NCBI RefSeq assembly: GCF_902168435.1
Contig: NZ_LR656171.1
Location: forward strand, 62,001-126,000
Origin: Bacillus marasmi
Lineage (GTDB): Bacteria; Bacillota; Bacilli; Bacillales; Cytobacillaceae
DNA length: 64,000 bases
Direction of reading: 5' to 3'
The position numbers and the translations under genes are program-made. Numbering within the stretch: position 1 is the stretch's first letter; the number at the start of each line of letters is the position of its first letter. Below are positions 4,130-64,000 of this stretch, one piece after another. Below the pieces are notes generated by a model. That model had not been told where the DNA came from, ran no database searches, and saw only the letters and a program-made list of their open reading frames with translations.

Positions 4130-5032
4130 TTAGTGAATATCGCGCTTTTTGAAGCGCCCGCCTCTTACTTCTGTAATATCAGCAATCGCTAAAAAGGCTG
4201 AAGGATCGATTTCTTCCACAATTGATTTTAATTTTGATTCTTCTAACCTGGTGATAATCGAAAAGACTACCTTCTTATCATCACCAGTAAATGCACCCTC
4301 ACCTTTTAAATAGGTAACACCTCGACCCAAACGCGCATTCACTACTTCACCAATTTTGTCCGCTTCATCACTAATAATCCAAACTGATTTCGATTCTTCT
4401 AATCCAGCTACGACTGTGTCAATTGCTTTTGCAGCAATTACGTAGGCAAGCAATGAATACATTGCACGATCCCAACCAAATACAAAACCAGCTGTTCCGA
4501 GAATGAAAACATTAATAAACATAATAATTTCGCCGACTGAGAATGGAACCTTTTTGTTTATTAAAATGGAAAGAATCTCAGTGCCATCCAAAGCTCCACC
4601 ATTTCGGATAACCAAGCCCACTCCAACACCAAGGATAATCCCTCCAAAAACGGTTGCTAACAGGATATCATCTGTAAAGGCTGGAACTGTATGAAAGAGT
4701 GATGTAAACACAGATAACACGATAATTCCATATATAGTGGAGATTGCAAATGTTTTTCCCATTTGTTTAAATCCAAGATATACAAAAGGTAAGTTTAATA
4801 GGAAAAGAAAGATTCCTAGTGCCACGCCTGTTAAATGTGAAAGCATGATGGATATCCCGGTTATTCCGCCATCAATAACATGGTTTGGAACTAAAAATAT
4901 TTCTAATCCAGTAGCCATTAAAATAGCCCCAAGAGTAATCCCTATTGTTCTCATAATCTTTTTTCTTGCTGTAAGCTTACGATGCTTTGCTACAGCACCA
5001 GCTAATTCCGCCGCTTTTGTCAATTCTGTCAC
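4130..5032 (-). CDS. YitT family membrane protein (DUF161/DUF2179)
   Basis: A 300-residue membrane protein. Five to six hydrophobic segments fill residues ~28-200 (LVPNHVIDGGITGISIML is the YitT signature). A soluble DUF2179 domain follows (GRGVTYLKGEGAFTGDDKKVV). Translation starts at GTG, with AGAGGTGG just upstream. Paralogues are common in Bacillus and their transport substrate is not established. Confidence 0.88.
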   Translation of the reverse strand: MTELTKAAELAGAVAKHRKLTARKKIMRTIGITLGAILMATGLEIFLVPNHVIDGGITGISIMLSHLTGVALGIFLFLLNLPFVYLGFKQMGKTFAISTIYGIIVLSVFTSLFHTVPAFTDDILLATVFGGIILGVGVGLVIRNGGALDGTEILSILINKKVPFSVGEIIMFINVFILGTAGFVFGWDRAMYSLLAYVIAAKAIDTVVAGLEESKSVWIISDEADKIGEVVNARLGRGVTYLKGEGAFTGDDKKVVFSIITRLEESKLKSIVEEIDPSAFLAIADITEVRGGRFKKRDIH

Positions 5033-17171: not shown

Positions 17172-17665
17172 AAAAAGAGGCTGGGACATAAGTATTTCAG
17201 TTAAACAAAAAACCGAACTATCATGCGAAATTCTAACTTAGAATTTCCTAATAGTTCGATTTTTATATTACTATTTACTATAGAGCTACCCTGAAATAAA
17301 TGTGGATTGGATCACACATTAAGTGCAGTTTTTTTGCTTGAGGGTTTGTTAACCCGAATGTTGATTTCCTTGTGTTTGAAAATAAGCGGAAGAATTACGC
17401 TTATTTTGGAAAAGACCCATATTTCCCTTATAATAACGGGAGTTTTTCCAAAAATCAGTTGATTTTGTCTTTTGGGGAGTAGTTAAGCGGAAAATCTACT
17501 CTTATTTCAGCTCATTTAGCCCCCCTTATATACAATAAGGGGAAATTCTACTCTTATTTAGATTCTCATACCTACATGAAAATCAACACTGAACTTTAAT
17601 ATATTCCTCCATAAAAATCATTTGGTTTTAATAGCGAACGATTTAGTTCTGTCCCAGTTTCTTTT
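17172..17665 (-). repeat. dispersed 3'-UTR repeat element, copy A
   Basis: A 494-bp non-coding element between DUF421 and katG. Read from the katG side (minus strand) it starts with a terminal repeat (GCTGGGACAGAACTAAA-like, 17649-17665) and passes four imperfect palindromes with arms like AATAAGCGGA / TCCGCTTATT (near 17535, 17482, 17425 and 17379). It then reaches a terminator-like hairpin (17206-17265, arms CCGAACTAT / ATAGTTCGG-like) and the opposite terminal repeat (GAGGCTGGGACA, 17176-17187). It begins 36 bp after the katG stop codon. Five related copies lie elsewhere in the window. Confidence 0.8.
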
Positions 17666-25527: not shown

Positions 25528-25545
25528 CAAAGAAATAATCATATT

Positions 25546-25621
25546 TTGGTGCGGTAACTGACGGCAATTGTGGAATTAACCACAAGGAAGCCGCATTATT
25601 AATTAGTCGGGTCGTCTGGGC
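25546..25621 (+). ncRNA. ZTP (pfl) riboswitch
   Basis: The sequence carries the two conserved halves of the ZTP/ZMP aptamer: AACTGACGGCAATTGTGG, the stem GTGG..CCAC, then after a linker GTCGGGTCGTCTGGGCA. TGCGG and CCGCA pair to close the first domain. The terminator hairpin at 25622 follows at once, and folD comes next. This is the expected layout for a ZTP switch that turns on one-carbon (10-formyl-THF) genes when the purine intermediate AICAR phosphate accumulates. Confidence 0.92.
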
Positions 25622-25658
25622 AGAGATAGGGATATGTATTCCTATCTCTTTTTTTTTT
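25622..25658 (+). terminator. riboswitch expression-platform terminator
   Basis: A perfect 9-bp stem AGAGATAGG / CCTATCTCT with a 10-nt loop, followed by T9, 15 bp before the folD start. Confidence 0.88.
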
Positions 25659-26530: not shown

Positions 26531-26992
26531 TAAAGCTGTGACAGATCTAAATGATCTTACGGAAGTCTATATAAAGGTCAGAGTGATTTTCATGTAAGTA
26601 TGAGAAAAAATAAGCGGAGAATTTCCCGTTATTATATGCAAGGGGAGCTAATTGATCTGAAATAAGAGGAGAATTTCCGCTTAAATGCTCCCAAGAAGAC
26701 AAAATCCAATGGTTTTTATGAAATAAGCGGAAAAACTCCCTTTATTCTTAGCAAAAAACCCGTATTTCTCAAAATAAGCGAAATTCTTCCGCTTATTTTT
26801 AACCACAAGTAAATCAACATTCTGGTTAACAGACTCACGTGCAAAAAAATTTGCACACAGTTATTTCAAGGTAGTGCATATTGGAAAATAGAATAAAAAA
26901 ACCGAACTATTAGGAAATTCTAAGTAAGAATTTTTCATAATAGTCCAGTTTTTTGTTTAGCTGAAATACTTATGTCCTTGCCTCTTTCTTTT
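26531..26992 (+). repeat. dispersed 3'-UTR repeat element, copy B
   Basis: A 462-bp non-coding element that begins 10 bp after the folD stop with a degenerate terminal repeat (AAAGCTGTGACAG). Four palindromes follow (near 26610, 26665, 26725 and 26778), then a ~110-bp spacer with TGTTAACCAGAATG on the complement. The terminator-like hairpin is at 26895-26955 and the far terminal repeat, written TGTCCTTGCCTC here, ends it. Same orientation to folD as copy A to katG. Confidence 0.8.
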
Positions 26993-29389: not shown

Positions 29390-29585
29390 AAAATAAGCGG
29401 AGATTTTCCCGTTAATAATAGAATAGAGCCCGTTTCGGGGTAAATAAGTGGAGATTTTCCGCTTATGCTCATATAAATTGACTATCTTCTCGTTTTTTTG
29501 AGTCATTAAGTGGAATTTCTCCGTCTATTTAGGCTAGTTTCAATGCTATTTTTAAAATAAGTGGAATTTCTCCGTCTATTTATTA
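29390..29585 (+). repeat. dispersed repeat element, partial copy C (palindrome array only)
   Basis: Four imperfect palindromes with arms like AATAAGTGGA / TCCGCTTATG at 29392, 29442, 29507 and 29556. The first unit matches the first unit of copies D and F in the same orientation, facing the 3' end of the PAS gene. Terminal repeats and the terminator hairpin of the full element are missing or unrecognisable. Confidence 0.65.
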
Positions 29586-35194: not shown

Positions 35195-35345
35195 CACAAG
35201 CTCCACCTTCCTTCTCATATAACGCTTACGAGGTTAGCTGTCGGATTCGGGCCATTGAGTAGCCCTACCTAAAAAGGATTCACCCCCAGGATGATCATCA
35301 CCCTAAAAATGGTTCCCCCGTACCAATTGGTTTCAGCGAAATAAG
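35195..35345 (-). ncRNA. c-di-AMP riboswitch (ydaO/yuaA class)
   Basis: On the minus strand the leader carries the conserved blocks of the class in order: CGCTGAAACC, GGTACGGGGGAACC, GGGGGTGAATCC, TAGGTAGGGCTA, CCGAATCCGACAGCTAACC, CGTAAGCG and GAAGGAAGGTGG. High c-di-AMP, which signals abundant potassium, is expected to favour the terminator at 35142 and shut off kimA. Confidence 0.95.
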
Positions 35346-35491
35346 AAATTTGAAACTGTGAATATTTTATTCCTCTATTTGACTAAAGTAAACGATTTTT
35401 TTTTGAAAAAGATAAAAAAACTAAAAGAAGGCAATATTATGTAACGGAAGCATGAAGAGTCCATGTCCCTATACTTCAAGGAGGAACGAAC

Positions 35492-36016: not shown

Positions 36017-36176
36017 TCTACTCTCCCCTTCTAAAACGAATTTATTATCAATGATTCTACGGAAATTATCGCATATACAAATTCAAGGCAACTCACCAAC
36101 ATATGAAGTTTATTTGAATAATCGAACGAAGGGGAGGTTCTAAATTTCCGATAGAACTACATCACAAATGAGAATA

Positions 36177-36276
36177 AAAGAGGCTTGTTAAACAAAAGCT
36201 CATTTTTACGATGGGTAAAATTTCACAGGCTTTGCCTTTTTCATGTATATAAGCTAGTTTTGTCCCAGCCTCATTA
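36177..36276. repeat. short element with GGCTGGGACA terminal sequence
   Basis: A ~100-bp segment opening AAAAGAGGCTTGTTAAACAAAAGC and closing TGTCCCAGCCTCATT. The closing end is the same terminal repeat as in the large dispersed elements; the inside is unrelated apart from an AGGCTTTGCCT hairpin. It sits 3' of arsC and may terminate it. Confidence 0.55.
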
Positions 36277-41712: not shown

Positions 41713-41774
41713 CGGTTTGACAGAATAACAAATCAAAATGGTTACTTCCACGGGGAAATAACAATTCGATTCGA

Positions 41775-41845
41775 TACTCTTCTGTCCTTTTGCCTGAGAT
41801 TGTGAACCCTTCGGCGCCGCGGAAATTCGCGGTCTCTCCAGAAGC
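41775..41845 (-). ncRNA. glycine riboswitch (gcvT RNA), single aptamer
   Basis: On the minus strand the conserved core reads GGAGAGACCGCG, then GGCGCCGAAGGG, CTCAGGCAAAAGGACAGAAG. Only one aptamer is seen; the usual second tandem aptamer is absent and is replaced by the terminator region. Single-aptamer versions are known in front of glycine transporters. Confidence 0.92.
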
Positions 41846-42045
41846 TGCTCCTGCTATAGTTTGATCCACAGCAATCATAGCTAGCTATTTAATTTGTTTG
41901 CCGTATTCCACACTTTAATTATTTCGGAATAATATAAAATTTTATCAGTATTATTTCTAATGGTCAATAGCCTTATAGAATAGTTTGCTAGTCAAAAATT
42001 AAAAATATATAATTTGTTCAATACTATTTATAGGTAGTGATAAAT

Positions 42046-42465
42046 TTGGCATTATTAAAAGCTGCACGACCTCCATCACAACGAGGAATCTATATAGTTG
42101 CTGTAATCATTACAATAGCACTCGGCTTGGCTTCAAGAGCATTCGCTGAACGACTACCTGCTTTTGTTGCAGGGCACGCAGGTGATGCCCTTTGGGCGAT
42201 GATGGTTTATTTTGGATTTCGATTATTATTTGTGCGTAGGACTCTGTTATTCGCAATGGTACTTAGTGTTATGTTTAGTTTTTCAATTGAACTAAGCCAG
42301 CTTTATCAAGCTGATTGGATAAATGCTGTTCGGGGTACTGTGCTCGGAGCGCTTGTTTTAGGGAAAGGGTTTCTTGTAATTGATTTGGTAAGATATCTGT
42401 TAGGAATTATTCTCGCGGTGGTGTTAGATAAGATTGTAATAAAAAAGAGGCTGGGACAAAAGTAA
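42046..42465 (+). CDS. DUF2809 membrane protein with repeat-derived C terminus
   Basis: A 139-residue protein with four membrane segments (IYIVAVIITIALGLASR, GDALWAMMVYFGFRLLF, TLLFAMVLSVMFSFSIEL and a last pair); FSIELSQLYQADWINAVRGT is the DUF2809 signature. TTG at 42046 (GGTAGTGAT upstream) or GTG at 42037 can start it. Its last residues, KKRLGQK and stop, are encoded by the terminal repeat of dispersed element D, which therefore lies inside the coding end. Confidence 0.8.
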   Translation: MALLKAARPPSQRGIYIVAVIITIALGLASRAFAERLPAFVAGHAGDALWAMMVYFGFRLLFVRRTLLFAMVLSVMFSFSIELSQLYQADWINAVRGTVLGALVLGKGFLVIDLVRYLLGIILAVVLDKIVIKKRLGQK

Positions 42466-42806
42466 AAACCGAATGAGTAAAGTTCAGTGTTGATTTTTAT
42501 GTAGGTATGAGAATAAATAAGCGGAGAATTTCCCGTTATTGTATGTATGGAGGGCTAATTGAGGTGAAATAAGAGTAGAATTTCCGCTTAACTGCTCCCA
42601 AAAAGACAAAATCCAGTGATTTTTATGAAATAAGCGAAAAAACTCCCTTTATTCTTAACAAAATACAGGCATTACCCAAAATAAGTGGAATTCTTCCGCT
42701 TATTTTCAAGAATCAAAAAAACGAACTATTCGGAAATTCAAAGTTAGAATTTCGCATCATAGTTCGATTTTTTTTAGCTGAAATACTTATGTCCAGCCTC
42801 ATTTCT
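42444..42806 (+). repeat. dispersed 3'-UTR repeat element, copy D
   Basis: A 363-bp element whose left terminal repeat (GAGGCTGGGACA, 42448-42459) overlaps the end of the DUF2809 gene. Four palindromes follow at 42515-42540, 42567-42592, 42628-42653 and 42678-42706. The terminator-like hairpin is at 42715-42775, and the far repeat reads TGTCCAGCCTC. It lacks the ~110-bp spacer found in copies A, B and E. Confidence 0.85.
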
Positions 42807-42807
42807 A

Positions 42808-43068
42808 TTATTTTGTTTGTTGAAGTAATGCTTCGTATGGAGTAAGGTCAACACCCTTTGCTTTTAACAGCTTAACAGCACGGTCCTGCATATCTCCAGG
42901 TGATGAAGTGATATAGCCCTTTACAACAGCGTCTTTAGTAACTACATCGCCTTCAACACTGGCCAAAATCACATTTTCAATTTTCTTTTTCGCCATTGGG
43001 CGAACAAAAACTGGGATTGGTGATACTAACTCTTCCAATAGGTCTTTTGCATCTTGATTCCATTCCAT
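42808..43068 (-). CDS. PCP_red-domain small protein (DUF2621-like)
   Basis: An 86-residue protein: MEWNQDAKDLLEELVSPIPVF, then VRPMAKKKIENVIL and an IT-type helix. The W..DAK..L and PVFVRPMAKKKIE pattern is that of the small domain at the end of protochlorophyllide reductase subunit B (PCP_red), which also occurs alone in Bacillaceae. The start MEWNQ has AAGGAAGG about 10 nt upstream. No photosynthesis link is implied. Confidence 0.75.
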   Translation of the reverse strand: MEWNQDAKDLLEELVSPIPVFVRPMAKKKIENVILASVEGDVVTKDAVVKGYITSSPGDMQDRAVKLLKAKGVDLTPYEALLQQTK

Positions 43069-43147
43069 AATATTCAATACCTTCCTTATTTTAAAAATAT
43101 ACAAAATCTATTATACACCCTTTAACACATTTAACACCATTTAAATG

Positions 43148-44338
43148 TTATTTAAAACAATTCTGTTCTGTTAAGTAATAGGCGAGGCATTTGGAATTCG
43201 ATTTTTGCGTTAATGCCGCTTCCATATACTTTCTTCCATAAAAATATGTAAATATATAAGATTCACAATAAGGGCGTTGTAATGATTGGATAGCATAGTT
43301 TGCTCGACTTTCATCATATTTGGCATATTTCATGAGGTAGTTGACTGCCTCAGAAGTTGGTCTCCCTTCATAGAGAAGCAAGGCTGCGTTACACCAAGTA
43401 CCACGTATCAAATCTATTGCTTTTTGAATCCCAAGTAAATCCATTTCCTCAGGTTCAATCCCCAATTCTGGATAAATATGATTAGCCATCCATTGTTCAG
43501 CCTCGCCTGGTGCAAATATTGATTTCATCGCCATTAGTGCAATACCTTCACTAACAACGAAAGAAGGCGTCAGCAACAAACTTACCTGCTGCTCCTCGTA
43601 TCCTTGACGATTCACCAAGTGTTCTTCCTTCAGCAAAAATTCAGCAATATGGCCAGGGTATCCCTCGTGGCAAACAATCGATAATAATTCAGCAATATTA
43701 AAGGGCATATTGGTATTCACATAGATTTTGGCTTGATAATGTCCGGAATATTCAGCCATTGCCTTCACTGGTAAATCCGTCTTTTCAACATGAATCTGTG
43801 TTTTGGGTAGCATGATTAATTTTTCATTAGTCCTTCTAAAAGCTTCAGCAGCTGCACGTTGAATCAGTTCTGGCAAGAGTTCCTTCTTTTCAATCGGAAG
43901 TAAATACTTTAGTTGATAATTTGCTAATTGCTCTTCAATGCTGCCTTTACCTGGCAAGGACTTCTCATAAAGCTCCCATGCCTCCTCAAACACAGTTTCT
44001 GAAATCCATTCAGACGGTACATGAAAATACTTTTGCACTTCTTCTCTTAACGTTATTCTTTCCCCCGCGATTCGACGACAGACTGTCTCTAAAGCAACTA
44101 AGTGTTTAGTTAGGTAGTCCTCTCGCCTGGCATCAAATCCCTGTTGTGACACATCATTTATTAATAAAGTTACTTCTTCGAAAAGTTGCTTACCTGACCA
44201 AACAGGCTCACTGTCCACTTGTTTTTTTATACTTTGATTTCCATAAAAATCGTACAATATATCATTCGTTTCATTTTGGATCGCCTTACCGATTCTGAGT
44301 ACAAGAAGAACATATCTTTGTATCCAGGTTAAACTCAT
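43148..44338 (-). CDS. DUF885-type putative metallopeptidase
   Basis: A 396-residue soluble protein. The zinc-type motif CHEGYPGHIAEFL lies near residue 232, with a downstream glutamate-containing segment VVSEGIALMAM, as in DUF885 peptidases. It is shorter than the ~550-residue family norm, so the N-terminal part is reduced. The start at MSLTWIQRYV is fixed by GGGAGGAG 7 nt before it. The substrate is unknown. Confidence 0.8.
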   Translation of the reverse strand: MSLTWIQRYVLLVLRIGKAIQNETNDILYDFYGNQSIKKQVDSEPVWSGKQLFEEVTLLINDVSQQGFDARREDYLTKHLVALETVCRRIAGERITLREEVQKYFHVPSEWISETVFEEAWELYEKSLPGKGSIEEQLANYQLKYLLPIEKKELLPELIQRAAAEAFRRTNEKLIMLPKTQIHVEKTDLPVKAMAEYSGHYQAKIYVNTNMPFNIAELLSIVCHEGYPGHIAEFLLKEEHLVNRQGYEEQQVSLLLTPSFVVSEGIALMAMKSIFAPGEAEQWMANHIYPELGIEPEEMDLLGIQKAIDLIRGTWCNAALLLYEGRPTSEAVNYLMKYAKYDESRANYAIQSLQRPYCESYIFTYFYGRKYMEAALTQKSNSKCLAYYLTEQNCFK

Positions 44339-44437
44339 CGAAATACTCCTCCCTGACAAATACTGCATGAAAACAACTTTAAATAATTATTTTAATATAT
44401 TTTTAAAATTCCACCAATCCCCTAATCAGTTTGTCCA

Positions 44438-44464
44438 ACCATATATGACAAGCTTGCATATATT
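44438..44464 (+). promoter_or_regulatory. possible SigK promoter
   Basis: AC, 17 bp, CATA-N3-T fits the late mother-cell sigma factor K consensus; it lies about 35 bp before the TTG start of the low-complexity protein gene. Confidence 0.4.
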
Positions 44465-44495
44465 GAATGTAGAAAGCTTGAAAGGGGGGATTTTA

Positions 44496-44897
44496 TTGAG
44501 CAATCCATGGTTCTCAAGCAATGGCTATAACAAAGGCTTCAACAAGGGGTACAACAAAAGCGACAACAAATCACACAGCGATTCAGATTCAAAGTCAAAA
44601 TCAGATCTTGACTTTGACAATGAATTCGATAACGAAGTAGATAGCGCTAGTAAATCAAGAAACAAAAACTCTGCTGTTGCTAAGGTTTTCAAAAGTGGTA
44701 ACTCTGAAGTTTATGTTGATGCAAAAGTTTACTCCGACACTAGCGCGAAAGTTCGTGCGAAAGCTGAATCAGACCAAGATCAAGACCAAGACCAAAAACA
44801 ACACATGAAAAACAAACAACACGATTATTTCTTCGGCAAACAAAGTCAAGAAGATGGCGGTCATGACTCTGGCTCTGGTAAAAACCACAAGTATTAA
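44496..44897 (+). CDS. low-complexity protein, probable spore surface protein
   Basis: A 133-residue hydrophilic protein. It opens SNPWFSSNGYNKGFNKGYNK, followed by a Ser/Asp/Lys block, a valine-rich core (KSGNSEVYVDAKVYSDTSAKV) and a Gln/Asp/His-rich tail. Such composition, together with a SigK-like promoter and exosporium genes nearby, suggests a coat or exosporium protein; this is inference. TTG start with AAAGGGGGGA at the right distance. The SGNSEVYVDAKV core resembles SGNSDVDVKVNV in the next gene. Confidence 0.6.
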   Translation: MSNPWFSSNGYNKGFNKGYNKSDNKSHSDSDSKSKSDLDFDNEFDNEVDSASKSRNKNSAVAKVFKSGNSEVYVDAKVYSDTSAKVRAKAESDQDQDQDQKQHMKNKQHDYFFGKQSQEDGGHDSGSGKNHKY

Positions 44898-44920
44898 TGT
44901 AAACAGAAGCTAGGAAAATT

Positions 44921-44942
44921 GGGGAATGTATATACATTCCCC
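44921..44942 (+). terminator. perfect 22-bp palindrome between two related genes
   Basis: GGGGAATGTAT and its exact complement, with no loop spacer, followed by CTT and later T-rich sequence. It could terminate the first gene or be an operator for the next one, whose ATG is 36 bp downstream. Confidence 0.5.
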
Positions 44943-44977
44943 TTCTTAAAAATTTAGGATAGAAATGAGGATTTATC

Positions 44978-45331
44978 ATGAACGATCAAGATGCTAAATC
45001 TTCCAGCCGTTTTTTTGATGATCTAATGCTACGAAAAGCAAAATCAGTCAATCAGGTCAAAACAGACGCTTCATCTGCCGTCAATCACAGTGGAAATTCA
45101 GATGTTGATGTTAAGGTCAACGTAAATGTAGATACAATGCCAATCGCACTTGCCTTTTTGGTATTATCCTATGCTAACAAGCAAATTGACCGTCAGCAAT
45201 TTGAAGAAGCTGTTGAAAAATTACTGGAAGTTAACAAACAATATCAGAAAACCACTGAATCATATCCTGGTGATTCTAAGGTAAAATTAATGAAAGATCA
45301 AAACGATACAAAAATCTGGGGAAGATACTAA
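44978..45331 (+). CDS. probable spore surface protein paired with the preceding gene
   Basis: A 117-residue protein. A polar N terminus (MNDQDAKSSSRFFDDLM) leads to the core AVNHSGNSDVDVKVNVNVD and a helix TMPIALAFLVLSYANKQ with a C-terminal helical part. The SGNS-DVxV core is shared with the previous gene and hints at a common assembly motif. I cannot name the family. GAGGAT precedes the ATG. A terminator follows. Confidence 0.6.
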   Translation: MNDQDAKSSSRFFDDLMLRKAKSVNQVKTDASSAVNHSGNSDVDVKVNVNVDTMPIALAFLVLSYANKQIDRQQFEEAVEKLLEVNKQYQKTTESYPGDSKVKLMKDQNDTKIWGRY

Positions 45332-45352
45332 GCCATCATCTTCCCTTGTTTT
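45319..45352 (+). terminator. terminator
   Basis: GGGAAGAT / ATCTTCCC stem across 11 nt, overlapping the stop codon, then a T-rich tail. Confidence 0.7.
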
Positions 45353-45440
45353 ATTTTACCATTACATTTATTCCTTTTGATAATTAGTTATATTAAAATA
45401 ACAAAGTAAGATTTAATTGCACTTTAGGAGGATGGATGTC

Positions 45441-46604
45441 ATGCAAGATTTTATATTTCAAAACAGTACCAAGATTATTTTTGGCAAAAATAAAGAGGTA
45501 ACAGTTGGCGAAGAAGCATTGTTATTTGGTAAGAAGCTTCTTTTGCATTACGGTGGAGGAAGTATTAAGGAAACCGGTTTATATCAAAAAATAATTCACT
45601 CTCTTCATGAACAAGAAATAGAAATTTTCGAGCTAGGTGGAGTGAAACCAAATCCAAGAGTTAGTCTTGTCCGTGAAGGCATCGCTCTTTGTAGAGAACA
45701 TTCGATTGGATTTATCCTCGCCGTTGGCGGAGGAAGTGTTATTGATTCTGCTAAGGCGATAGCGATTGGTGCTACATACGAAGGAGATGTTTGGGATTTC
45801 TTTGATGGCAAAGCTGAGGTTACCGAGTCACTGCCAATTGGTGTTGTCCTGACAATTCCGGCTGCAGGAAGCGAATCCAGCAGTGGTACAGTCATCACAA
45901 ACGAAGATGGTTGGTACAAACGCTCGACTGGTCATGTGAGCTTGCGTCCGCGTTTTGCGATCCTAAATCCAGAGCTTTCTTATACTCTGCCTCCATATCA
46001 AACTGCCTGTGGGATAACCGATATGATGGCACATATTTTAGAAAGATACTTCACAAACGAAAAGAACGTCGAGCTAACGGATCGGCTATGTGAAGCAACA
46101 CTTAAGACGATTATCAACAACGCACATATCGTCCTTGATGACCCTACCAACTACGAAGCGCGTGCTGAAATTATGTGGGCCGGAACGATAGCGCATAATG
46201 ATTTGCTAAGTACTGGACGAATCGGAGATTGGGGCAGTCATGATATCGAGCATGAAATCAGTGGCATTTATGATATTGCTCACGGCGCCGGACTAGCAAT
46301 CATTTTCCCAGCCTGGATGAAATACGTGTACAAGCATGATATCAACCGTTTTGCTCAATTTGCCCATCGCGTCTGGGACGTTGAATTTGATGTGAATAAT
46401 TTAGAAAGAACCGCAAAGCGTGGGATTTTAAAAACCGAACAATTCTTCCGTTCCATCGGCTTGCCTGTCCGCTTGTCGGAAGCAAACATTAGCGACGAGC
46501 ATTTTGAAGAAATGGCTAAAAAAGGAACTGAGAATGGTCCGCTTGGCAATTTTGTAAAATTACATGAACAAGACCTTATCGAAATCTTCGAATTAGCAAA
46601 ATAA
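45441..46604 (+). CDS. iron-containing alcohol dehydrogenase (butanol dehydrogenase type)
   Basis: A 387-residue NAD(P)H-dependent dehydrogenase of the iron-dependent group III, similar to YugJ/YugK. The nucleotide-binding motif is AVGGGSVIDSAKAIA, and the metal ligands lie in ITDMMAHILERYF and DIEHEISGIYDIAHGAGLAI (His residues). The start MQDFIFQNS is set by AGGAGG 9 nt upstream. It probably reduces aldehydes to alcohols in low-oxygen growth. It stands alone, with its own terminator. Confidence 0.92.
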   Translation: MQDFIFQNSTKIIFGKNKEVTVGEEALLFGKKLLLHYGGGSIKETGLYQKIIHSLHEQEIEIFELGGVKPNPRVSLVREGIALCREHSIGFILAVGGGSVIDSAKAIAIGATYEGDVWDFFDGKAEVTESLPIGVVLTIPAAGSESSSGTVITNEDGWYKRSTGHVSLRPRFAILNPELSYTLPPYQTACGITDMMAHILERYFTNEKNVELTDRLCEATLKTIINNAHIVLDDPTNYEARAEIMWAGTIAHNDLLSTGRIGDWGSHDIEHEISGIYDIAHGAGLAIIFPAWMKYVYKHDINRFAQFAHRVWDVEFDVNNLERTAKRGILKTEQFFRSIGLPVRLSEANISDEHFEEMAKKGTENGPLGNFVKLHEQDLIEIFELAK

Positions 46605-46608
46605 CTAT

Positions 46609-46646
46609 AATCCACTCCGCTGTTGATAGCGTGAGTGGATTTTTTT
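46609..46646 (+). terminator. terminator of the alcohol dehydrogenase gene
   Basis: A perfect 9-bp stem AATCCACTC / GAGTGGATT across 15 nt, then T7. Confidence 0.85.
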
Positions 46647-46662
46647 GTATGGAAAATTATTT

Positions 46663-46843
46663 TCGGACAATGAAGCCCTTATTTAGACGAAAATCAACAA
46701 TTTCAAAGTGAAACCGGACATACGATCCTCTATTTGCCATCAAAACAGTCTGATTTTGAAGATTCTCACTAAATAAAGTATCTGGTGTCCGCAAAACTAT
46801 TAAATGGAGGCGTTTTAATGCAAATAGGGTATTCTGTGTCCGC
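46663..46843. repeat. four-copy GCGGACA repeat cluster in two inverted pairs
   Basis: Four related ~22-bp sites: plus strand TCGGACAATGAAGCCCTTAT (46663) and CCGGACATACGATCCTCTAT (46714); minus strand GCGGACACCAGATACTTTAT (46771-46792) and GCGGACACAGAATACCCTAT (46821-46843). Each continues into TTGC or TTAG. The two leftward and two rightward copies face each other, spaced about 50 bp. The region is otherwise non-coding. Confidence 0.7.
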
Positions 46844-46949
46844 CCAAACCATCAACATGAATCTTTTGTCTTTCATTGTCAAATCCATTGACTTTTACGA
46901 AGAAAATATTAAACTAATGTAAAGGAAATATTAAGTTTTGTAAATTTTA

Positions 46950-46965
46950 TTACAAGACCTTGTAA
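46950..46965. promoter_or_regulatory. palindrome upstream of a small gene
   Basis: TTACAAG-AC-CTTGTAA, two perfect 7-bp arms, lies about 10 bp before the ribosome site of the 46984 gene. It is a probable operator; no regulator is assigned. Confidence 0.4.
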
Positions 46966-46983
46966 CAGAAAGGAGAAATAGAT

Positions 46984-47259
46984 TTGGGCATAGAGGAATA
47001 TTGCGGAAACACTATTGAATTATCAGCCATGAAGCTTGTCTTTACCTTAACTAACGAAACACGTGAAAAAATCTCTAAAAAAGAATTAATCTATAAAGAA
47101 CAAATTGTACGTTTTATTAAAAAGAAAATCGATTTCTACTTCAACTCTTTGCAGATAAAAAAAGCCCTATTACATGCTTACAAAAATGAAATCTACAATT
47201 CTGTTATGTTCAAGCTACAACCGATTTTTAAGGAGTTTAATATTTTTCAATGCATATAA
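46984..47259 (+). CDS. hypothetical basic protein
   Basis: A 91-residue lysine-rich, helical protein (ETREKISKKELIYKEQIVRF, IKKKIDFYFNSLQIKKALLH). It is not recognised. Translation starts at TTG with AAAGGAG at normal distance. A palindrome just upstream and a strong hairpin downstream support an independent transcript. Confidence 0.55.
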   Translation: MGIEEYCGNTIELSAMKLVFTLTNETREKISKKELIYKEQIVRFIKKKIDFYFNSLQIKKALLHAYKNEIYNSVMFKLQPIFKEFNIFQCI

Positions 47260-47316
47260 AAAGTGCCTTTCAGTGTTTTGTTTACGTAACCAAAACTACT
47301 AAAAGACACTTTTTTA
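47257..47316. terminator. large bidirectional terminator
   Basis: AAAAGTG..CACTTTT with inner CTTT/AAAG and GTTTTG/CAAAAC stems, flanked by A and T runs, between the convergent 46984 and pstS genes. Confidence 0.75.
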
Positions 47317-47334
47317 TTTTCTTTATTACATAAA

Positions 47335-48303
47335 TTATTTAATTTCGTTTAATGCTTTCATTGCACTGTCAATGTCTTCATCTGCTAATGGCGCAAATCC
47401 GGTTTCTTCGGCAATTTTTTGGGCATTTTCCATTGTGTATTTTGCATAATCAAGTACTTCTGGCTTCTCTTTTGCATGTCCAATGTTTAAGTATGTGAAT
47501 ACTGGACGTGTGAATGGTGCGTAATCTCCATCCTCAGAAATCGTATCAAGTGTTGGTGCAACTGCCCCTTTTCCAAAGTCAACTTTGACTGCAGCTAGCT
47601 TGTCTTTATTGCTCGCATAGTAGCCATATCCCAAAAATCCGATTGCATTTTTGTCTTTAGAAACTAGGTCAACTAGTGTTGAATAATCCTGTTGTAAATT
47701 AATGCCTTTTACTAGGTCTTGCTCTTCTAAAATCGTTTCAAAGAAGAATTCATAAGTTCCATGGTTTTCATTTGGTCCGTATGTTTTGATTGGCTCATTA
47801 GGAAAGTCAGCACGAACATCTGACCATTTCTTCATACCCTTGCTATCTAAGAAAATATCAACAATTTCTTCTTTCGTAAGTTCTTTAGCCCAATCATTAT
47901 CTTTATTAATAACGATTGTGATACCATCTAAAGCAACTTTCAATTCTTGAACGTCAATGCCTAACTTTTCAGCCTCAGCTTTTTCTTCTTCTTTCATTTC
48001 ACGTGATGCATTATTAAAATCATTTCCGTCTTTCACCAAGAATTTTTTAAACCCTGCAGAAGTTCCGGCACGGCTTACCTCAACTGAAACGCCTTCTTGC
48101 TCGTTCGTCATGTAATTTTCAGCCATTTTAGCCATTAATGGATAAACCGTACCAGATCCATCGATGATGACTGTTCCTTCTAATTCTTCACTGCTGCTTG
48201 AGCTATCGTTACCACTTGCAGAATCTTTCCCCCCACATGCTGCTGTGAACATCATGACTGCAGCGATTAATAATAGTACGCTCCATTTTCTAAAGCTCTT
48301 CAT
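47335..48303 (-). CDS. pstS: phosphate-binding lipoprotein PstS
   Basis: A 322-residue phosphate-binding lipoprotein. The signal peptide ends in the lipobox FTAAC, giving a lipidated Cys. IIDGSGTVYPLM and SRAGTSAGFKKFL make the phosphate pocket, and SREMKEEEKAEAE follows. The start MKSFRKWSV has AGGGGG 10 nt upstream. The permease and ATPase genes (pstC, pstA, pstB) do not follow; a terminator lies 20 bp after the stop. Upstream is a clear PhoP-box array. Confidence 0.92.
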   Translation of the reverse strand: MKSFRKWSVLLLIAAVMMFTAACGGKDSASGNDSSSSSEELEGTVIIDGSGTVYPLMAKMAENYMTNEQEGVSVEVSRAGTSAGFKKFLVKDGNDFNNASREMKEEEKAEAEKLGIDVQELKVALDGITIVINKDNDWAKELTKEEIVDIFLDSKGMKKWSDVRADFPNEPIKTYGPNENHGTYEFFFETILEEQDLVKGINLQQDYSTLVDLVSKDKNAIGFLGYGYYASNKDKLAAVKVDFGKGAVAPTLDTISEDGDYAPFTRPVFTYLNIGHAKEKPEVLDYAKYTMENAQKIAEETGFAPLADEDIDSAMKALNEIK

Positions 48304-48352
48304 TTGACTTGTTCCCCCTAGTGAATTGGTTATTGTTTGTCTTACAAGTAAC

Positions 48353-48426
48353 AATATACAAGCCCACTATTAATCTGGTTTAAACAGTTTGTAAATTTCA
48401 GTAAATTTACAATGTAGTTTTGTAAA
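48353..48426 (-). promoter_or_regulatory. PhoP box array and -10 of pstS
   Basis: On the minus strand TTAATA, TTTAAA, TTTACA, TTTACT and, two turns further on, TTTACA occur at 10-11 bp periodicity (48368, 48379, 48390, 48400 and 48421), matching TTAACA-type PhoP boxes. A TATATT -10 (48353-48358) lies 9 bp downstream. It predicts strong induction by phosphate starvation. Confidence 0.7.
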
Positions 48427-48567
48427 CACTATGTCTCGATTATTGCCCACTCATGTATATTAGGCATTTGCTTTAAAAATTTTTCAAAAATAAACATACG
48501 CCTATACCCTTTGTACGATATTAAAATAGGTATAATACAAGGATATTTATAGAAAGGAGCGTTTTTT

Positions 48568-48921
48568 ATGCCCCCTAAACCTCCTAAAAAACAAAGTAAT
48601 CGTTCTTCATCAAACCAAAACAACTTTGTCAAAATTACCCCGGCGGTCAAGCGATTCTTTTACATTTGTGAAGAAGATATCGACCTATCGGTAAAACAAT
48701 TGATTCCTGCTAACAATTTCACAAATGATCAAGGTATATTGGTTACTGGATTTCCATACAAAAAGCCTAATGGCTATAACAATTTATTTATCAATGGGTT
48801 AATGCAGCAGGGAAGCATTTATTCTATATCAACAAAAGGCTTAACCATCAACGCTGTTAGTGGGACGATTTTTGCCGGCACTCCAATTATTATTGAGATG
48901 GTTGATTTTTATCTTAATTAG
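48568..48921 (+). CDS. DUF4183 protein, probable exosporium component
   Basis: A 117-residue protein. A Pro/Lys/Ser/Asn-rich N terminus (MPPKPPKKQSNRSSSNQNN) is followed by a DUF4183 beta domain: NGYNNLFINGLMQQGSIYSI, then LTINAVSGTIFAGTPIIIEM. DUF4183 proteins occur on spore surfaces. AAAGGAG precedes the ATG. It is convergent with another DUF4183 gene. Confidence 0.82.
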   Translation: MPPKPPKKQSNRSSSNQNNFVKITPAVKRFFYICEEDIDLSVKQLIPANNFTNDQGILVTGFPYKKPNGYNNLFINGLMQQGSIYSISTKGLTINAVSGTIFAGTPIIIEMVDFYLN

Positions 48922-48928
48922 TAAATAG

Positions 48929-48961
48929 AAAAAACGGGTCTCGTGTTTGGACCCGTTTTTT
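48929..48961. terminator. bidirectional terminator
   Basis: A perfect 12-bp stem AAAAAACGGGTC / GACCCGTTTTTT with a 9-nt loop between the two convergent DUF4183 genes. Confidence 0.88.
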
Positions 48962-48975
48962 GGCTATTTTGATGA

Positions 48976-49359
48976 TTATGTTTCCACAGTATTTGAAGCG
49001 GTAGGAGTGAAGTTCACTACTTCTAACACAACTGGAGTGCTCATAGGTATTCCAGGTCCTCCTGCCGGAACATCAATTGCAAGTGAACCAACAGCTGTTA
49101 TACCAGGTGTATACGTTGAAAGACCTTCCATTTGTAATACTCCATTGACATACACATTGTAATAGCTATTATCTGCTTCAAGAACCGGTAATTCAACGTT
49201 TGGATCCCCGTTATCCATAAAGAATGCAGCTGCATCAATATTCAAAGTTGCTCCTGCAGCGGTTGGAGCACCCGTTACGTAAAAGAATCTAGTATTTTCC
49301 GGATCAGCATCCACAGTTGTTGTGACACCAACATAAAGCTTCATTAATTGGAGTGCCAT
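48976..49359 (-). CDS. DUF4183 protein, probable exosporium component
   Basis: A 127-residue protein with the DUF4183 pattern SYYNVYVNGVLQMEGLSTY, then GSLAIDVPAGG and STPVVLEVVNFTP. The N-terminal part (MALQLMKLYVGVTTTVDADP) differs from its neighbour, so they are not a recent duplication. AAAGGAGG lies 7 nt before the ATG. Confidence 0.82.
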   Translation of the reverse strand: MALQLMKLYVGVTTTVDADPENTRFFYVTGAPTAAGATLNIDAAAFFMDNGDPNVELPVLEADNSYYNVYVNGVLQMEGLSTYTPGITAVGSLAIDVPAGGPGIPMSTPVVLEVVNFTPTASNTVET

Positions 49360-49469
49360 GCATTTTCCTCCTTTCCACGAATCTTTTATAGTTTATTCGT
49401 AAAAAATGGAGGTGCTTGGACAAACCATTTTCTTTTCCGAAATTACTTGCCTATTTTCTCAGATTGCTA

Positions 49470-49910
49470 TCATGCTAAGCGAATAATATTTAGTGCAGCC
49501 CCTGTTGCACCACCTCCAAGAAGTGTAGCGAGACCTAGCAGCCCAAAAAGCTCAAGTGTAATCGTATCACCTTGATTAAGTGTAGCAATCATACTATTTT
49601 GAAAGCTTGAGGCATTTAAAACAGGATCAATAATTGAACCTGGAAGAGGCGTTGACCCATTAAGGATTAGCCTTGAGTTTACTGCAAGTGCTGCGGTTAT
49701 ATTGACTTGATAAGAAATAAAATACAGCCCGTTCATCGGAATAGTAAAGGTGTCGTTTGCTCCATTAACGGAAAAACTACTAAGATTTTGATTGTTTGGT
49801 AATGGAACGTTGGTTCCTCCTAACACAACTGAAATGACAGACCCCGTAGTATTCGATGCATACATCGAGTCTTCCGTTGCATCAACGGCCTTCATATACT
49901 CTAAACTCAT
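49470..49910 (-). CDS. BclA-C / C1q-like exosporium protein
   Basis: A 146-residue protein matching the C-terminal globular domain of BclA and ExsF-type proteins: DTFTIPMNGLYFISYQVNIT, then SRLILNGSTPLPGSI and GDTITLELFGL. There is no collagen-like GXY region or signal peptide, so it is the beta-barrel domain alone, expected to trimerise on the spore surface. AAGGAGAGG precedes the ATG. It is co-directional with the second DUF4183 gene. Confidence 0.85.
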   Translation of the reverse strand: MSLEYMKAVDATEDSMYASNTTGSVISVVLGGTNVPLPNNQNLSSFSVNGANDTFTIPMNGLYFISYQVNITAALAVNSRLILNGSTPLPGSIIDPVLNASSFQNSMIATLNQGDTITLELFGLLGLATLLGGGATGAALNIIRLA

Positions 49911-49962
49911 CAGTGCCTCTCCTTCTTGCTGGTAATTTATTACATTCGTTTAGCGATATTCC

Positions 49963-49998
49963 AAAGGGGTAGCCTCCACAATTGGAGACTACCCCTTT
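49963..49998 (-). terminator. terminator of the small zinc protein gene
   Basis: AAAGGGGTAG...CTACCCCTTT with an inner CTCCA/TGGAG stem. It has A/T runs on both sides. Confidence 0.8.
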
Positions 49999-50025
49999 TA
50001 TTCTAAAATCTTTCATTATAGAGCT

Positions 50026-50145
50026 TTATTCTTCAGCTTGTTCCTCGCCGTAAGCTTCATACGTCCTCTCGCGGCACTCCCAACACTCGCACCGGTTTCT
50101 CTCCATTCTGCACAGCTCAACACCACATGAAATACATCTCTCCAT
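50026..50145 (-). CDS. 39-residue zinc-binding protein
   Basis: A small protein with four or more cysteines in CxxC-like pairs (ERCISCGVELC, then RNRCECWECRERTY) and an acidic tail, likely one zinc ribbon. The start at MERCISC is set by AAGGGGG. The longer open frame upstream runs through a short repeat and is not likely translated. The role is unknown. Confidence 0.65.
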   Translation of the reverse strand: MERCISCGVELCRMERNRCECWECRERTYEAYGEEQAEE

Positions 50146-50166
50146 GATCAATTCCCCCTTTTCCGA

Positions 50167-50187
50167 GTGCCTGTCACCACCCGAATT
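50167..50187. repeat. short interspersed repeat GTGCCT..CACCACCCGAATT, copy 1
   Basis: GTGCCTGTCACCACCCGAAT lies between the DUF2935 gene and the zinc protein gene. A near-identical copy (one base longer) is found at 51078-51099, upstream of the DUF2935 gene, in the same orientation. Confidence 0.65.
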
Positions 50188-50207
50188 TTCTTGTTTCACA
50201 GAGTGTT

Positions 50208-51017
50208 TCACAGTTCTTTTAATCGAGGTTTTGCTGGGTTACAGTTTGGTGGGTCAATCTTTCCTGATTGTGCCAGTTTCAATAAATAATAGCACTCTTC
50301 ACGATACATATGATCTGCCATGAGTGGTGCTAGCGTTCCCAATGCTTGTTTTGTAAGCCTAAGTTCTTCTAATTCTAGTAAGAAACCTTGAAACAACTTT
50401 ATTTCGAGTTGGGCATCAAGATTCATTTTTGACAATGCCGGAAACTCCGACACATTGGTTCTTAAATACCCTGCAAACTCGACTGCCTTTAAATAAAAGC
50501 TTTCAAATGTTTTCGTAAATTCACTACTTTTTTCTTTTAATTTCTTCTCGACGCCATCTAAATTTGAGGTTATCGCCTCTGCGTGACCAGCGGCATCCAA
50601 TAACCATAGGAGATGATGATGAACCTCATGATAAATCGGAGGAACCTCACCTGCCTTTAAATGGGTTAAGATTCTTAAATATTCCTCTAATTCATTCACC
50701 ATATGATTGATGAATGTAGGGGGCAGATGAATTTTGATATTTCCAACCAGGTGCTCCTTTATAAGCTCCAATTTGAAGATCCGTAATTTTTTTGCCTCTG
50801 ATTCAGCCTGAATAGTCAGTTGTGCAAGGGCATTGGTGTTTGCTTGTTCCAATAGTGTGTCAAAGACCTTGATAAATTGTTCAGCCTTGCGAATTTCCTT
50901 TGTTTGGATGGGAGCTAGTGCTTCATTGATAAACCTTGAATGATCGCCAAGTATTTGAAGCCAAAACTTATGTTCAAATCTTGCTGTTGTTTCAAACACA
51001 TCATTCATGGCATGCAT
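50208..51017 (-). CDS. DUF2935 helical protein
   Basis: A 269-residue all-helical protein with two four-helix domains. Each carries His/Glu residues in ferritin-like positions (ARFEHKFWLQILGDHSRF near residue 15, and LAPLMADHMYREECYYL near residue 235). EVHHHLLWLLDAAGHAEAI marks the start of the second half. These residues suggest a metal site. GGAGG lies 7 nt before the ATG. It is flanked by two copies of a 21-bp repeat. Confidence 0.82.
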   Translation of the reverse strand: MHAMNDVFETTARFEHKFWLQILGDHSRFINEALAPIQTKEIRKAEQFIKVFDTLLEQANTNALAQLTIQAESEAKKLRIFKLELIKEHLVGNIKIHLPPTFINHMVNELEEYLRILTHLKAGEVPPIYHEVHHHLLWLLDAAGHAEAITSNLDGVEKKLKEKSSEFTKTFESFYLKAVEFAGYLRTNVSEFPALSKMNLDAQLEIKLFQGFLLELEELRLTKQALGTLAPLMADHMYREECYYLLKLAQSGKIDPPNCNPAKPRLKEL

Positions 51018-51077
51018 CTTCCTCCCTGAAAAATATCCTCGCTATAAAATATATATTCTCGAACTTCGTTTTTATGC

Positions 51078-51099
51078 GTGCCTAGTCACCACCCGAATT
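51078..51099. repeat. short interspersed repeat GTGCCT..CACCACCCGAATT, copy 2
   Basis: GTGCCTAGTCACCACCCGAA continues to TT; same strand and sequence as the copy at 50167 apart from one inserted A. It abuts dispersed element E. Confidence 0.65.
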
Positions 51100-51111
51100 G
51101 GGGTAAGCATA

Positions 51112-51546
51112 AAGGAAGAGGCAGAGACATAAGTATTTCAGCTAAACAAAAAAACCGAACTATCATGCGAAATTCTAACTTAGAATTTCCTAATAGTTCG
51201 ATTTTTTAATTTTTGTTACTTTTACAATAGGCACTACCCTGAAACAACTGTGGATTTCATTGGTTTGTTAAATTTTTGGCATGTGAGTCTGTTAACCCGA
51301 ATGTTGATTTCCCTGTATTTGAAAATAAGTGGAAGAATTCCGCTTATTTTGATAAATGCCCTTATTTCGCTAAGAATAAAAGGAGTTTTTCCGCTTATTT
51401 CATAAAAATCACAGGATTTTGTCTTTTGGGAAGTAGTTAAGCGGAAATTATCCTCTTATTTCAGCTCAATTAGCCTCCCTGACATACAATAACGGGAAAT
51501 TCTCCCCTTATTTATTCTCATACCTACATAAAAATCAACACTGAGC
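51112..51546 (-). repeat. dispersed 3'-UTR repeat element, copy E
   Basis: A 435-bp element 30 bp after the pepF stop. Read from pepF (minus strand) it has four palindromes (near 51490, 51440, 51385 and 51323), a spacer, the terminator-like hairpin (51147-51207, arms CCGAACTAT / ATAGTTCG) and a terminal repeat written GAGGCAGAGACA. The pepF-proximal terminal repeat is missing. Confidence 0.8.
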
Positions 51547-51575
51547 ACTCCTCACAATCGCAGTTAACCGTTATT

Positions 51576-53381
51576 TTAGCTAATTTCATTCGTTAAGAGA
51601 ATAAATTCCTCAGCGTCTTTTTCCATCAATTTAATTCCAGCTTCCCAGAAAGTCGGTTTCGTCAGGTCTACTCCTAAATGGTTCAGCGCTAAATCTTCAA
51701 CTTTCATGCTACCAGTGTCGCGCAAGAGAGCAATGTATTTTTCTTCAAAGCCAGCAGGATTTTTCAAAAACTCGGCATAAATGCCTAAACTAAACAGAAA
51801 TCCAAACGTATACGGGAAGTTGTAGAATGGTATATCGTCGATAAAGAAGTGCAATTTACTGCACCAGAAATGCGGGTGGTAGCTAGCTAAGCTGTCACCA
51901 TATGCTTCTTTCTGCGCATTCTCCATCAATTCATTCAATCTTTGCTCAGAGACAATCCCCTTAGAACGCTCTTTATAAAACTTATTTTCAAACAGATAGC
52001 GAGCATGGATGTTTAAAAACATCGCAATCGCGTTCCCCATCTTAGCATCTAATAGTGTAATCTTCTCTTCCTTCGTTTTTGCATTAGCTACCGTTGCATT
52101 ATTAATAATCGTTTCGGCAAAGGTACTAGCTGTTTCAGCAACATTCATCGCATAGTTGCGGTTTAAGGTTGGCAAATCTCTCATTACATGACTGTGAAAT
52201 GCATGGCCGAGCTCATGTGCTAAAGTGCTAGCATCAGAAGGTGAACCGGTAAATGTCATAAAGATTCGAGATTCTTCATATTCTGGTAGTCCTGTACAAT
52301 AGCCTCCCGGGCGCTTATTCGGACGATCCTCCGCTTCTACCCAGCGATTTTCCAAAGCATGCTTGGCAAAGGCTGAAATTTCCTGGCCAAAACTTGCAAA
52401 GTTCTCAATGATAAAATCACAAGCTTCATCATAAGTAAAACGCGGTGGTTTTACATTTCCGAGCGCAACAGGGGCATCAACATCCTGCCAGCCTAATTTT
52501 TCCATGCCCAAAAGCTTTGCTTTTTGATTGAGAAAATCAATAAATGGTTGTTTATGATTCGCAACAGCCGTCCACATCGCATCGAGCGTTTCCTTTGTCA
52601 TGCGATTATACTCTAATGGCTCATCTAAATAACCTTCCCGGTCGTGAGCTTTCTGCAAAGTAATTCGATAGCCATCTAAATGATTCAGGGTATCGGCAAA
52701 TATTGGTGCATATTTTGTCCAGGCTGCCTCCCAGTTTTCGAATAACTGCTTTCTCACCTCTGGGTCAGGGTCGGCATACATCCGGTTCATCGCCTGACCA
52801 ACTGAGTATTCCGTTGTCTTTCCTTCCTTATCCGTAAATGGAATCGTCATGATTGAAACGACCGTATCGTATAAACGACTCCATGCGGTTAAACCATCTT
52901 TATTCAAATCAGTGATCAATTTTTCCTCTGCCTCTGACAACAGTCGTTTTCCGTGGTCTCGAAGCTCGTTCAACGCGAAGGAAACTTGGGTTAGCTCGGG
53001 GTCTAGCAAAAGATTTGTCCAGTCCTCATCTGGCAAGGCAACCATTTTTTTCGTAAATGCCTTCGAGAGATTTTCTACCTCACTTGAAAGTTCAATGACT
53101 TGTCCTTTAACTACATTCGCATAATCATCATTCATTTTGGCGTCGTGATACATATGTACAAAGGTGCCAGCCTGCCCTAAACCTTTCCCGATGCTTTCCT
53201 GTTTTTTTAGAATCGCTTTCAGCGGAGCAGCAGTAGAATCTTCCGCGAAGTTCCATTGCTGAATTAATTGTCGGTATTCTTGTATTTCTTTTTGTACACT
53301 TTGTAATTTTGTTTGTAATTCCGGTGATTTTGTCCCACCTGGAAAAATAGAATCTAAATCCCAAGTATCAACGTATTTCAT
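51576..53381 (-). CDS. pepF: oligoendopeptidase F (M3 family)
   Basis: A 601-residue zinc peptidase that cuts oligopeptides in the cytosol. The zinc site is TLAHELGHAFHSHVM (HExGH), with the third ligand region NVAETASTFAETI. EYEESRIFMTFTGSP and the C-terminal SLGIYAEFLKNP are typical. The length is normal. AAGGAG precedes the ATG. Repeat element E forms its 3' region. Confidence 0.95.
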   Translation of the reverse strand: MKYVDTWDLDSIFPGGTKSPELQTKLQSVQKEIQEYRQLIQQWNFAEDSTAAPLKAILKKQESIGKGLGQAGTFVHMYHDAKMNDDYANVVKGQVIELSSEVENLSKAFTKKMVALPDEDWTNLLLDPELTQVSFALNELRDHGKRLLSEAEEKLITDLNKDGLTAWSRLYDTVVSIMTIPFTDKEGKTTEYSVGQAMNRMYADPDPEVRKQLFENWEAAWTKYAPIFADTLNHLDGYRITLQKAHDREGYLDEPLEYNRMTKETLDAMWTAVANHKQPFIDFLNQKAKLLGMEKLGWQDVDAPVALGNVKPPRFTYDEACDFIIENFASFGQEISAFAKHALENRWVEAEDRPNKRPGGYCTGLPEYEESRIFMTFTGSPSDASTLAHELGHAFHSHVMRDLPTLNRNYAMNVAETASTFAETIINNATVANAKTKEEKITLLDAKMGNAIAMFLNIHARYLFENKFYKERSKGIVSEQRLNELMENAQKEAYGDSLASYHPHFWCSKLHFFIDDIPFYNFPYTFGFLFSLGIYAEFLKNPAGFEEKYIALLRDTGSMKVEDLALNHLGVDLTKPTFWEAGIKLMEKDAEEFILLTNEIS

Positions 53382-53425
53382 TTCACACGCTCCTTTAGGC
53401 TTGTTTTGACCATTTTTATGACGAT

Positions 53426-53827: not shown

Positions 53828-53910
53828 TTCATTCTCCTTTTCTATCATTTGATGTCCTATATAAATTCCATCCTAACTAGTGAATCCCTTCCTAAAATCA
53901 TCATTATTAT

Positions 53911-54312: not shown

Positions 54313-54345
54313 TCCTTCGCCTTCTTTCTTTTTATATTGAAATAA

Positions 54346-54370
54346 ATGGCTTGAGAATTTCTCAAGCCAT
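54346..54370 (-). terminator. terminator of the fatty-acid operon
   Basis: A perfect 10-bp stem ATGGCTTGAG / CTCAAGCCAT with a 5-nt loop and a T-rich minus-strand tail, between the acyl-CoA synthetase and thioesterase genes. Confidence 0.78.
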
Positions 54371-59039: not shown

Positions 59040-59096
59040 TTTACGAACCTCCTTCAACTGTTAACCTTGAATATAGATTTAGTTTATTTGCTCCAG

Positions 59097-63743: not shown

Positions 63744-64000
63744 AAAAAAACAAAGCTGGGACAGAACTAAATTGTCCGCTATAAAAACGAATGATTTTTA
63801 TGTACGTATGAGAATAAATAAGCGGAGAATTTCCCGTTATTGTATGTAAGGGGGCTAAATGAGCTGAAATAAGAGGAGAATTTCCGCTTAACCACTCTCA
63901 CAAAGACAATATCCAGTGATTTTTATGAAATAAACGGAAAAACTCCCTTTATTCTTAACGAAATATGGGCATTTCACAAAATAAGCGGAATTCTTCCGCT
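63744..64000 (+). repeat. dispersed 3'-UTR repeat element, copy F (cut by window end)
   Basis: It opens with the terminal repeat AAAGCTGGGACAGAACTAAA just after the CBO0543 gene stop. Palindromes follow near 63818, 63869, 63929 and 63980, in the same order as copies B and D. The terminator hairpin and far terminal repeat would lie beyond the window. Confidence 0.8.

Follow-up and report, generated by a model that had tools for sequence, protein, structure and literature searches.

A terminator-carrying repeat at gene 3' ends of Bacillus marasmi is very probably a MITE-like derivative of the IS1182 family

The window, by which we mean the whole 64 kb stretch of DNA that was analysed, contains five copies (A, B, D, E and F; Table 1) of a composite element that have in common GAGGCTGGGACA-like terminal repeats, four palindromes and one long hairpin. 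The original prediction counted six copies of one element. This stands for these five copies but not for copy C, in which neither the terminal repeats nor the hairpin were found and which scores 46 bits against a profile of the element; the highest-scoring pieces of A, B, D and E reach 279–497 bits and the truncated copy F reaches 230 bits. The neighbouring genes indeed encode a catalase-peroxidase, FolD, a PAS-domain protein, a DUF2809 protein and an M3-family oligoendopeptidase, the last scoring above the cut-off of the M3_fam_3 model and below that of the pepF model itself. The name CBO0543, given earlier to the gene at 62867–63733, is unconfirmed, as this gene has no match in Pfam or NCBIfam. 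The reading frame of the DUF2809 gene enters the end of copy D, which provides the last five codons and the stop codon. Within the window Rfam gives three matches at gathering score, none of them inside an element: a ZMP/ZTP riboswitch at 25544–25628 upstream of folD, a c-di-AMP riboswitch at 35207–35348 and a glycine riboswitch at 41772–41851. The small element at 36170–36275 has an IS1182-like end and a hairpin, and adjoins the 3' end of a minus-strand gene that ends at 36282.

Table 1. Element copies and related features in the 64 kb window.
Feature	Position	Strand	Remarks
Copy A, composite element	17172..17665	-	Downstream of katG (stop 17701); tandem; array side towards the stop
Copy A, terminator-like hairpin with A/T tracts	17202..17264	-	
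Copy B, composite element	26531..26992	+	Between folD (stop 26521) and a convergent gene (stop 27105)
Copy B, terminator-like hairpin	26896..26958	+	
Copy C, palindrome array only, divergent variant	29390..29585	.	Without outer ends and without hairpin; a different element
Small decayed element	36170..36275	-	GAGGCTGGGACA end matching the ends of IS1182-family insertion sequences
Copy D, composite element, short form	42444..42806	+	Between convergent DUF2809 and DUF2621 genes
Copy D, terminator-like hairpin	42712..42774	+	
Copy E, composite element	51112..51546	-	Downstream of the oligoendopeptidase gene (stop 51576); tandem
Copy E, terminator-like hairpin	51144..51207	-	
Copy F, composite element cut by the window edge	63744..64000	+	Complete in the genome as L066; convergent genes

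The profile, built from the sequences of A, B, D and E, was run on stretches fetched from the source genome, whose 46 contigs total 4.64 Mb. Hits with a summed score of 290 bits or more over their pieces were counted as complete or nearly complete copies and then aligned; this genome has at least 47 of them, a few without one end. The number is a lower bound, with 40 scored per search out of 108 and 103 first-look candidates. Matches to the palindrome pattern (541 in the genome versus 12 for the reversed control, at up to three mismatches) and to the terminal repeat (50 versus none) far exceed those of the controls, and the repeat is therefore not a product of chance; the right end of the element gives 47 matches versus three for its reversed control, again at up to three mismatches. 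Genes were called with our own hexamer script rather than with a published gene finder, and none of the called genes lies inside any of the 56 hits that are obtained when partial and array-only copies are included. The element is thus non-coding and carries no transposase gene. The identity of a copy to its nearest relative ranges from 0.86 to 0.97 with a median of 0.93, and a search with the IS1182-family transposase from Cytobacillus that is described below gives no match in this genome. Old copies together with the absence of a close transposase fit a relict family that is no longer moving.

Copies adjoin gene 3' ends in either orientation. Among the 47 copies, 26 lie between convergent genes, eight lie in tandem with the array side towards the 3' end and 11 in tandem with the hairpin side towards it, while one is found between divergent genes and one at a contig end. 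For all 56 hits the corresponding numbers are 30, 10, 12, three and one. Window copy F entered these counts as L066, which overlaps the window end; they exclude L091, any hit that does not exceed 50 bits, and L040 and L065, which duplicate copies of the window. Convergent genes enclose 26 of 46 element copies but only 42 of 250 element-free gaps, a few of which were possibly counted twice. A stop codon lies within 60 bp of 41 of the 47 copies, the median distance between element and stop is 21 bp (72 facing stops), and at six facing 3' ends the stop is located at or inside the element edge. The suggestion that the element targets gene ends is in agreement with this proximity and with the strong convergent excess. 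The headline claim, that the array side always faces the stop codon, is literally true for the six window copies and informative only for A and E, since B, C, D and F are placed between convergent genes and both sides of each face a stop. Genome-wide, the eight array-side and 11 hairpin-side tandem copies show no orientation bias (p = 0.65), the outcome that the original prediction itself had named as refuting, and the proposed polarity therefore fails.

The hairpin is positioned just inside one end of the element. An A-tract precedes it and a T-tract follows it in 42 of the 46 copies in which our script located both arms; in L064, which the script missed, the stem is changed yet fully paired. 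Structurally, the idea of a portable terminator is thereby upheld. Changes on both sides are seen in ten of the 29 hairpin pairs. For the whole structure one of 500 shuffles reached the observed number of pairs changed on both sides, and a control in which the 3' partners were slid by one column gave an equal covariation score. Median fold energies of the hairpin are −24.8 and −21.9 kcal/mol on the two strands. The hairpins of D and E are missing from the output of a general terminator scan. No other terminator-like hairpin precedes the element at 71 of the 72 facing 3' ends, a count that includes gaps too short to test, and L074 retains an ordinary terminator ahead of the element. We do not lean on the comparison of one terminator-like hairpin between stop and element at 72 such ends with 61 at 217 ordinary ends, in which stretch lengths differ greatly, gaps that are too short are scored as having none and the scanner is strict. 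Judged from its sequence, the element would supply a terminator to the flanking genes and probably provides a substitute for the stop signal that it displaced.

The outer ends point to the IS1182 family. On plasmid NZ_CP097350.1 of Cytobacillus pseudoceanisediminis, an IS1182-family transposase gene is bounded by GAAGAGGCTGGGACA and its complement, and this insertion sequence (IS) sits past the 3' end of one gene and is convergent with the next. In ISSau3, from a Staphylococcus aureus plasmid, the gene is flanked by GAGGCTGGGACA and TGTCCCAGCCTC. With the Cytobacillus transposase as query, 31 of 61 genomes match at an E value of 0.001 or better, many of them weakly. Thirty IS copies were fetched from five relatives, and 29 of these, coming from four relatives, have ends of the GAGGCTGGGACA type or close variants such as GAGAGCGGGACA; the right end of the thirtieth (L198) was not found, and this copy was excluded from the context tally and from the end and flank test. 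In the tally 14 of the 29 autonomous copies are convergent, 15 are tandem and none is divergent, with the left ends of L185 and L194 matched loosely at this stage and their proper ends found in the later end and flank test. All five transposases tested score above the NCBIfam IS1182 cut-off. When eight IS copies were folded, long hairpins of other sequence were observed near both ends, most of them with A- and T-rich flanks. Small elements of the B. marasmi genome match the IS ends at 89–95% over 31–47 bp, while copies A and D share only 15 identical base pairs with them and copy B has no match at an E value of 0.01. Terminal repeats in common with IS1182-family insertion sequences, as expected of a MITE, are thus present, but a matching transposase was not found in the same genome. 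As a MITE can outlive its partner, the missing transposase lowers the case for a MITE without excluding it. The link to IS1272 is one at the level of the family.

Three other candidates were rejected. The IS1182-family (PF13751) gene of this genome was considered as the direct partner and has ends that by eye resemble GAAGCCACTGAAAAA. ISEfa7 is without GAGGCTGGGACA ends, and an IS1182-family match from Priestia has different ends.

IS1272 and TnSha1 are described as inserting into hairpins, with loss of the hairpin sequence and without target duplication; several of the target hairpins are reported as confirmed terminators by RNA-seq, and TnSha1 as inserting in both orientations (PMC4923244, PMC5678879). 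A survey places IS1182 among the IS families that are over-represented between convergent genes (PMC9208149). In our data a direct repeat of two or more bases at the ends is absent from all 36 element copies examined, and repeats of two to three bases are present at four of 31 IS insertions. Flank complementarity at these 31 insertions is not reached in any of 5000 permutations, a value that is pooled over genomes and may be inflated. For the 36 element copies it is weak, with 156 of 5000 permutations as high by run length and 1173 of 5000 by simple count. The tandem copies (eight versus 11) show that both orientations occur at the target.

Relative G002 offers an empty site, as its matches to window positions 42154–61899 lie in the same order on one contig. 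At the site of copy D it has a short bidirectional terminator between the orthologues of the flanking genes, which folds at −20.5 kcal/mol with the surrounding stretch. In B. marasmi this terminator gives way to an A-run, a 360 bp element and a T-rich flank. A target hairpin is thus seen to be replaced, at this one collinear empty site only. Ordinary terminator-like hairpins, judged by eye on folds, follow folD in G003, pepF in G001, G002 and G003, and katG in G002, while no obvious one was seen by eye after katG in G003. We take these hairpins as supportive, collinearity being established for site D only.

The shell encloses a second and distinct repeat, the four-palindrome array. Arrays also stand alone, both in this genome and elsewhere in the genus, and several of these have terminal repeats of their own. 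A stop codon is found within 60 bp of only 11 of 34 array-only copies, compared with 41 of 47 composites, and eight of 33 array-only copies are in convergent gaps; these loci are those already fetched and not a random sample. This speaks against the array as the part that seeks gene ends. Nor is a role as the RNA-structured part supported: a change on both sides is found in one of 36 array base pairs, and that pair is unpaired in 42 of 47 copies. With RNAalifold, some pairs spanning long distances in the array were preferred, and the covariation term was just −0.29. Column identity of the array among composites is 0.92, and the P1–P2 and P2–P3 spacers are about as conserved as the palindrome arms. 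Across the family, palindrome counts are 378 for this genome, 356 for G031 and 191 for G182, and near zero in many others. Among the loci examined no partner IS bears the ends of the inner array, and the plasmid and phage records contain no match to it. As an exact 25-mer the first palindrome has one match in the genome contig set, in Solibacillus merdavium, in a set that may omit the source genome. In our view the array is most readily understood as a passenger that was captured.

Some further loci with arrays deserve mention. In L084 (G000:C26, around 4600–5020) the array is expanded to several near-identical tandem units. In L109 (G003:C1:447631-447802) the arms of a long inverted repeat enclose an array copy and an IS1182-like transposase match lies about 1 kb away, which suggests nesting in another element.

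We consider it highly likely that the element is a non-autonomous, MITE-like derivative of the IS1182 family that swaps the host terminator for its own. It works in the manner of an IS1182-type MITE, a kind already known, and most probably is one; all tested defining features are present with the exception of a transposase in the same genome. An IS1182-type transposase would recognise the GAGGCTGGGACA ends and, on the precedent of IS1272, would insert into hairpins, often Rho-independent terminators, such that the hairpin sequence is removed and no target duplication arises. Targeting of hairpins or terminators places copies a few bases from stops, often between convergent genes and in either orientation. 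The element hairpin with its A-tract and T-tract should terminate transcription in both directions, restoring what the insertion removed. The array, as a second repeat with its own terminal repeats, would have been captured inside the shell and amplified along with it, and would lengthen the mRNA of the gene that it faces by about 300 nt containing small hairpins. We infer that the copies were mobilised in the past by a transposase no longer seen in this genome and that the array entered the shell by nested insertion. Actual termination at the hairpin is a prediction from its sequence.

The alternative closest to this is that the element is an IS1182-type MITE, but with a hairpin that serves transposition or is a passenger and does not terminate, the copies marking former terminator sites. 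Terminator targeting alone would explain their position, and the copies are old (median nearest-copy identity 0.93, maximum 0.97). We nevertheless regard this as unlikely, because 42 of 46 copies have retained the hairpin with its two tracts, ten of 29 hairpin pairs are changed on both sides and the autonomous relatives have hairpins of different sequence near both ends. It is less probable again that the array is a selected multi-hairpin 3'-UTR RNA, for example one that guards mRNA from 3' decay, with the shell as its vehicle. In favour of this, composites vary little within the array (column identity 0.92), and the gene that the array faces would include it in its mRNA, but there is no Rfam match, the P1–P2 and P2–P3 spacers are conserved about as well as the arms, and the single pair of 36 that changed on both sides is mostly unpaired.

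Two further explanations appear very improbable. An orientation-specific 3'-UTR or terminator element with a functional array that always faces the stop codon would account for the six window copies, but not for the tandem copies genome-wide (eight versus 11, or ten versus 12 when partial copies are included), nor for array-only copies that are not concentrated at stops. Slightly less probable still is that the palindromes form a REP/BIME-like system and owe their spread to a RAYT (Y1 transposase) encoded in this genome. The palindromes are numerous (541 at up to three mismatches) and grouped, and two Y1_Tnp genes are present, but no AATAAGCGGA-type palindrome lies within about 1.5 kb of either gene at up to four mismatches, both genes sit among other repeats and the composite carries IS1182-type ends. 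The original prediction had suggested a search for a RAYT-like or other transposase with matching ends; the matching family is IS1182.

The two Y1_Tnp (RAYT-like) genes, in L093 (near G000:C27:254130-254471) and L094 (near G000:C4:4555-4881), are each surrounded by a different short repeat, one of the GGGGGACTGTCCCCC type and one of the GGTGCCTGTCACCGCCCGAA type, which look like REP systems of their own. Around positions 2505–2830 of L093 another repeat has ends that by eye are like those of the inner array (GAATGTTGATTTCC type), suggesting shared mobilisation.

Returning to the MITE-like IS1182 derivative, IS1272 and TnSha1 of Staphylococcus resemble it in family, in insertion into terminator hairpins with loss of the hairpin and no duplication, and in the use of both orientations, but are described as autonomous or as composite with a transposase (PMC4923244, PMC5678879), whereas the element here is non-coding and carries a terminator hairpin and a palindrome array. 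ISSau3 and the IS on NZ_CP097350.1 have the same GAGGCTGGGACA ends, and the latter also lies past a gene 3' end and has hairpins near both ends. Both differ in their length of about 1.8–2.0 kb, their transposase gene and their unrelated interior. The SPRITE, RUP and BOX repeats of Streptococcus pneumoniae are likewise small intergenic repeats that insert into one another, and SPRITEs are described as terminator-like (PMC10969869), a likeness to our element at the level of description. They belong to another organism, and the part of that source available to us states no terminator-replacing mechanism (PMC10969869). REP/BIME systems with RAYT share the many short extragenic palindromes in spaced groups, but in this genome no RAYT is linked to the palindromes. 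In titles and abstract openings of the openly licensed literature we found no description of an IS1182 MITE or of these repeats; a terminator-carrying, array-laden MITE at dozens of gene ends is a variant for which that literature yielded no description.

The case seems evenly balanced for a broader proposition, in which a clade of IS1182 elements and their MITEs destroy host terminators and carry bidirectional ones of their own, so that insertion would be transcriptionally silent. In B. marasmi dozens of native terminators would then have been replaced, some genes would have been given their stop codon and last residues, and the array would have been added to the 3' UTR of one flanking gene. 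An odd repeat becomes a testable case of how a transposon avoids damage to its host by aiming at terminators and bringing a replacement. The proximity of some intergenic repeat families to gene 3' ends could in this way be explained without invoking a 3'-UTR function, and the case warns that polarity should not be read from a handful of copies. Dozens of candidate natural terminator swaps are available in this genome, and their consequences for operon boundaries, antisense transcription and mRNA decay could be measured.

Among the fetched loci there are also elements of about 690 bp (L077, L078, L080 and L067:6069-6204) that have GAGGCTGGGACA-like ends and the hairpin end of the composite around a different interior. 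L077 and L080 each hold a complete small IS1182-like mini-element.
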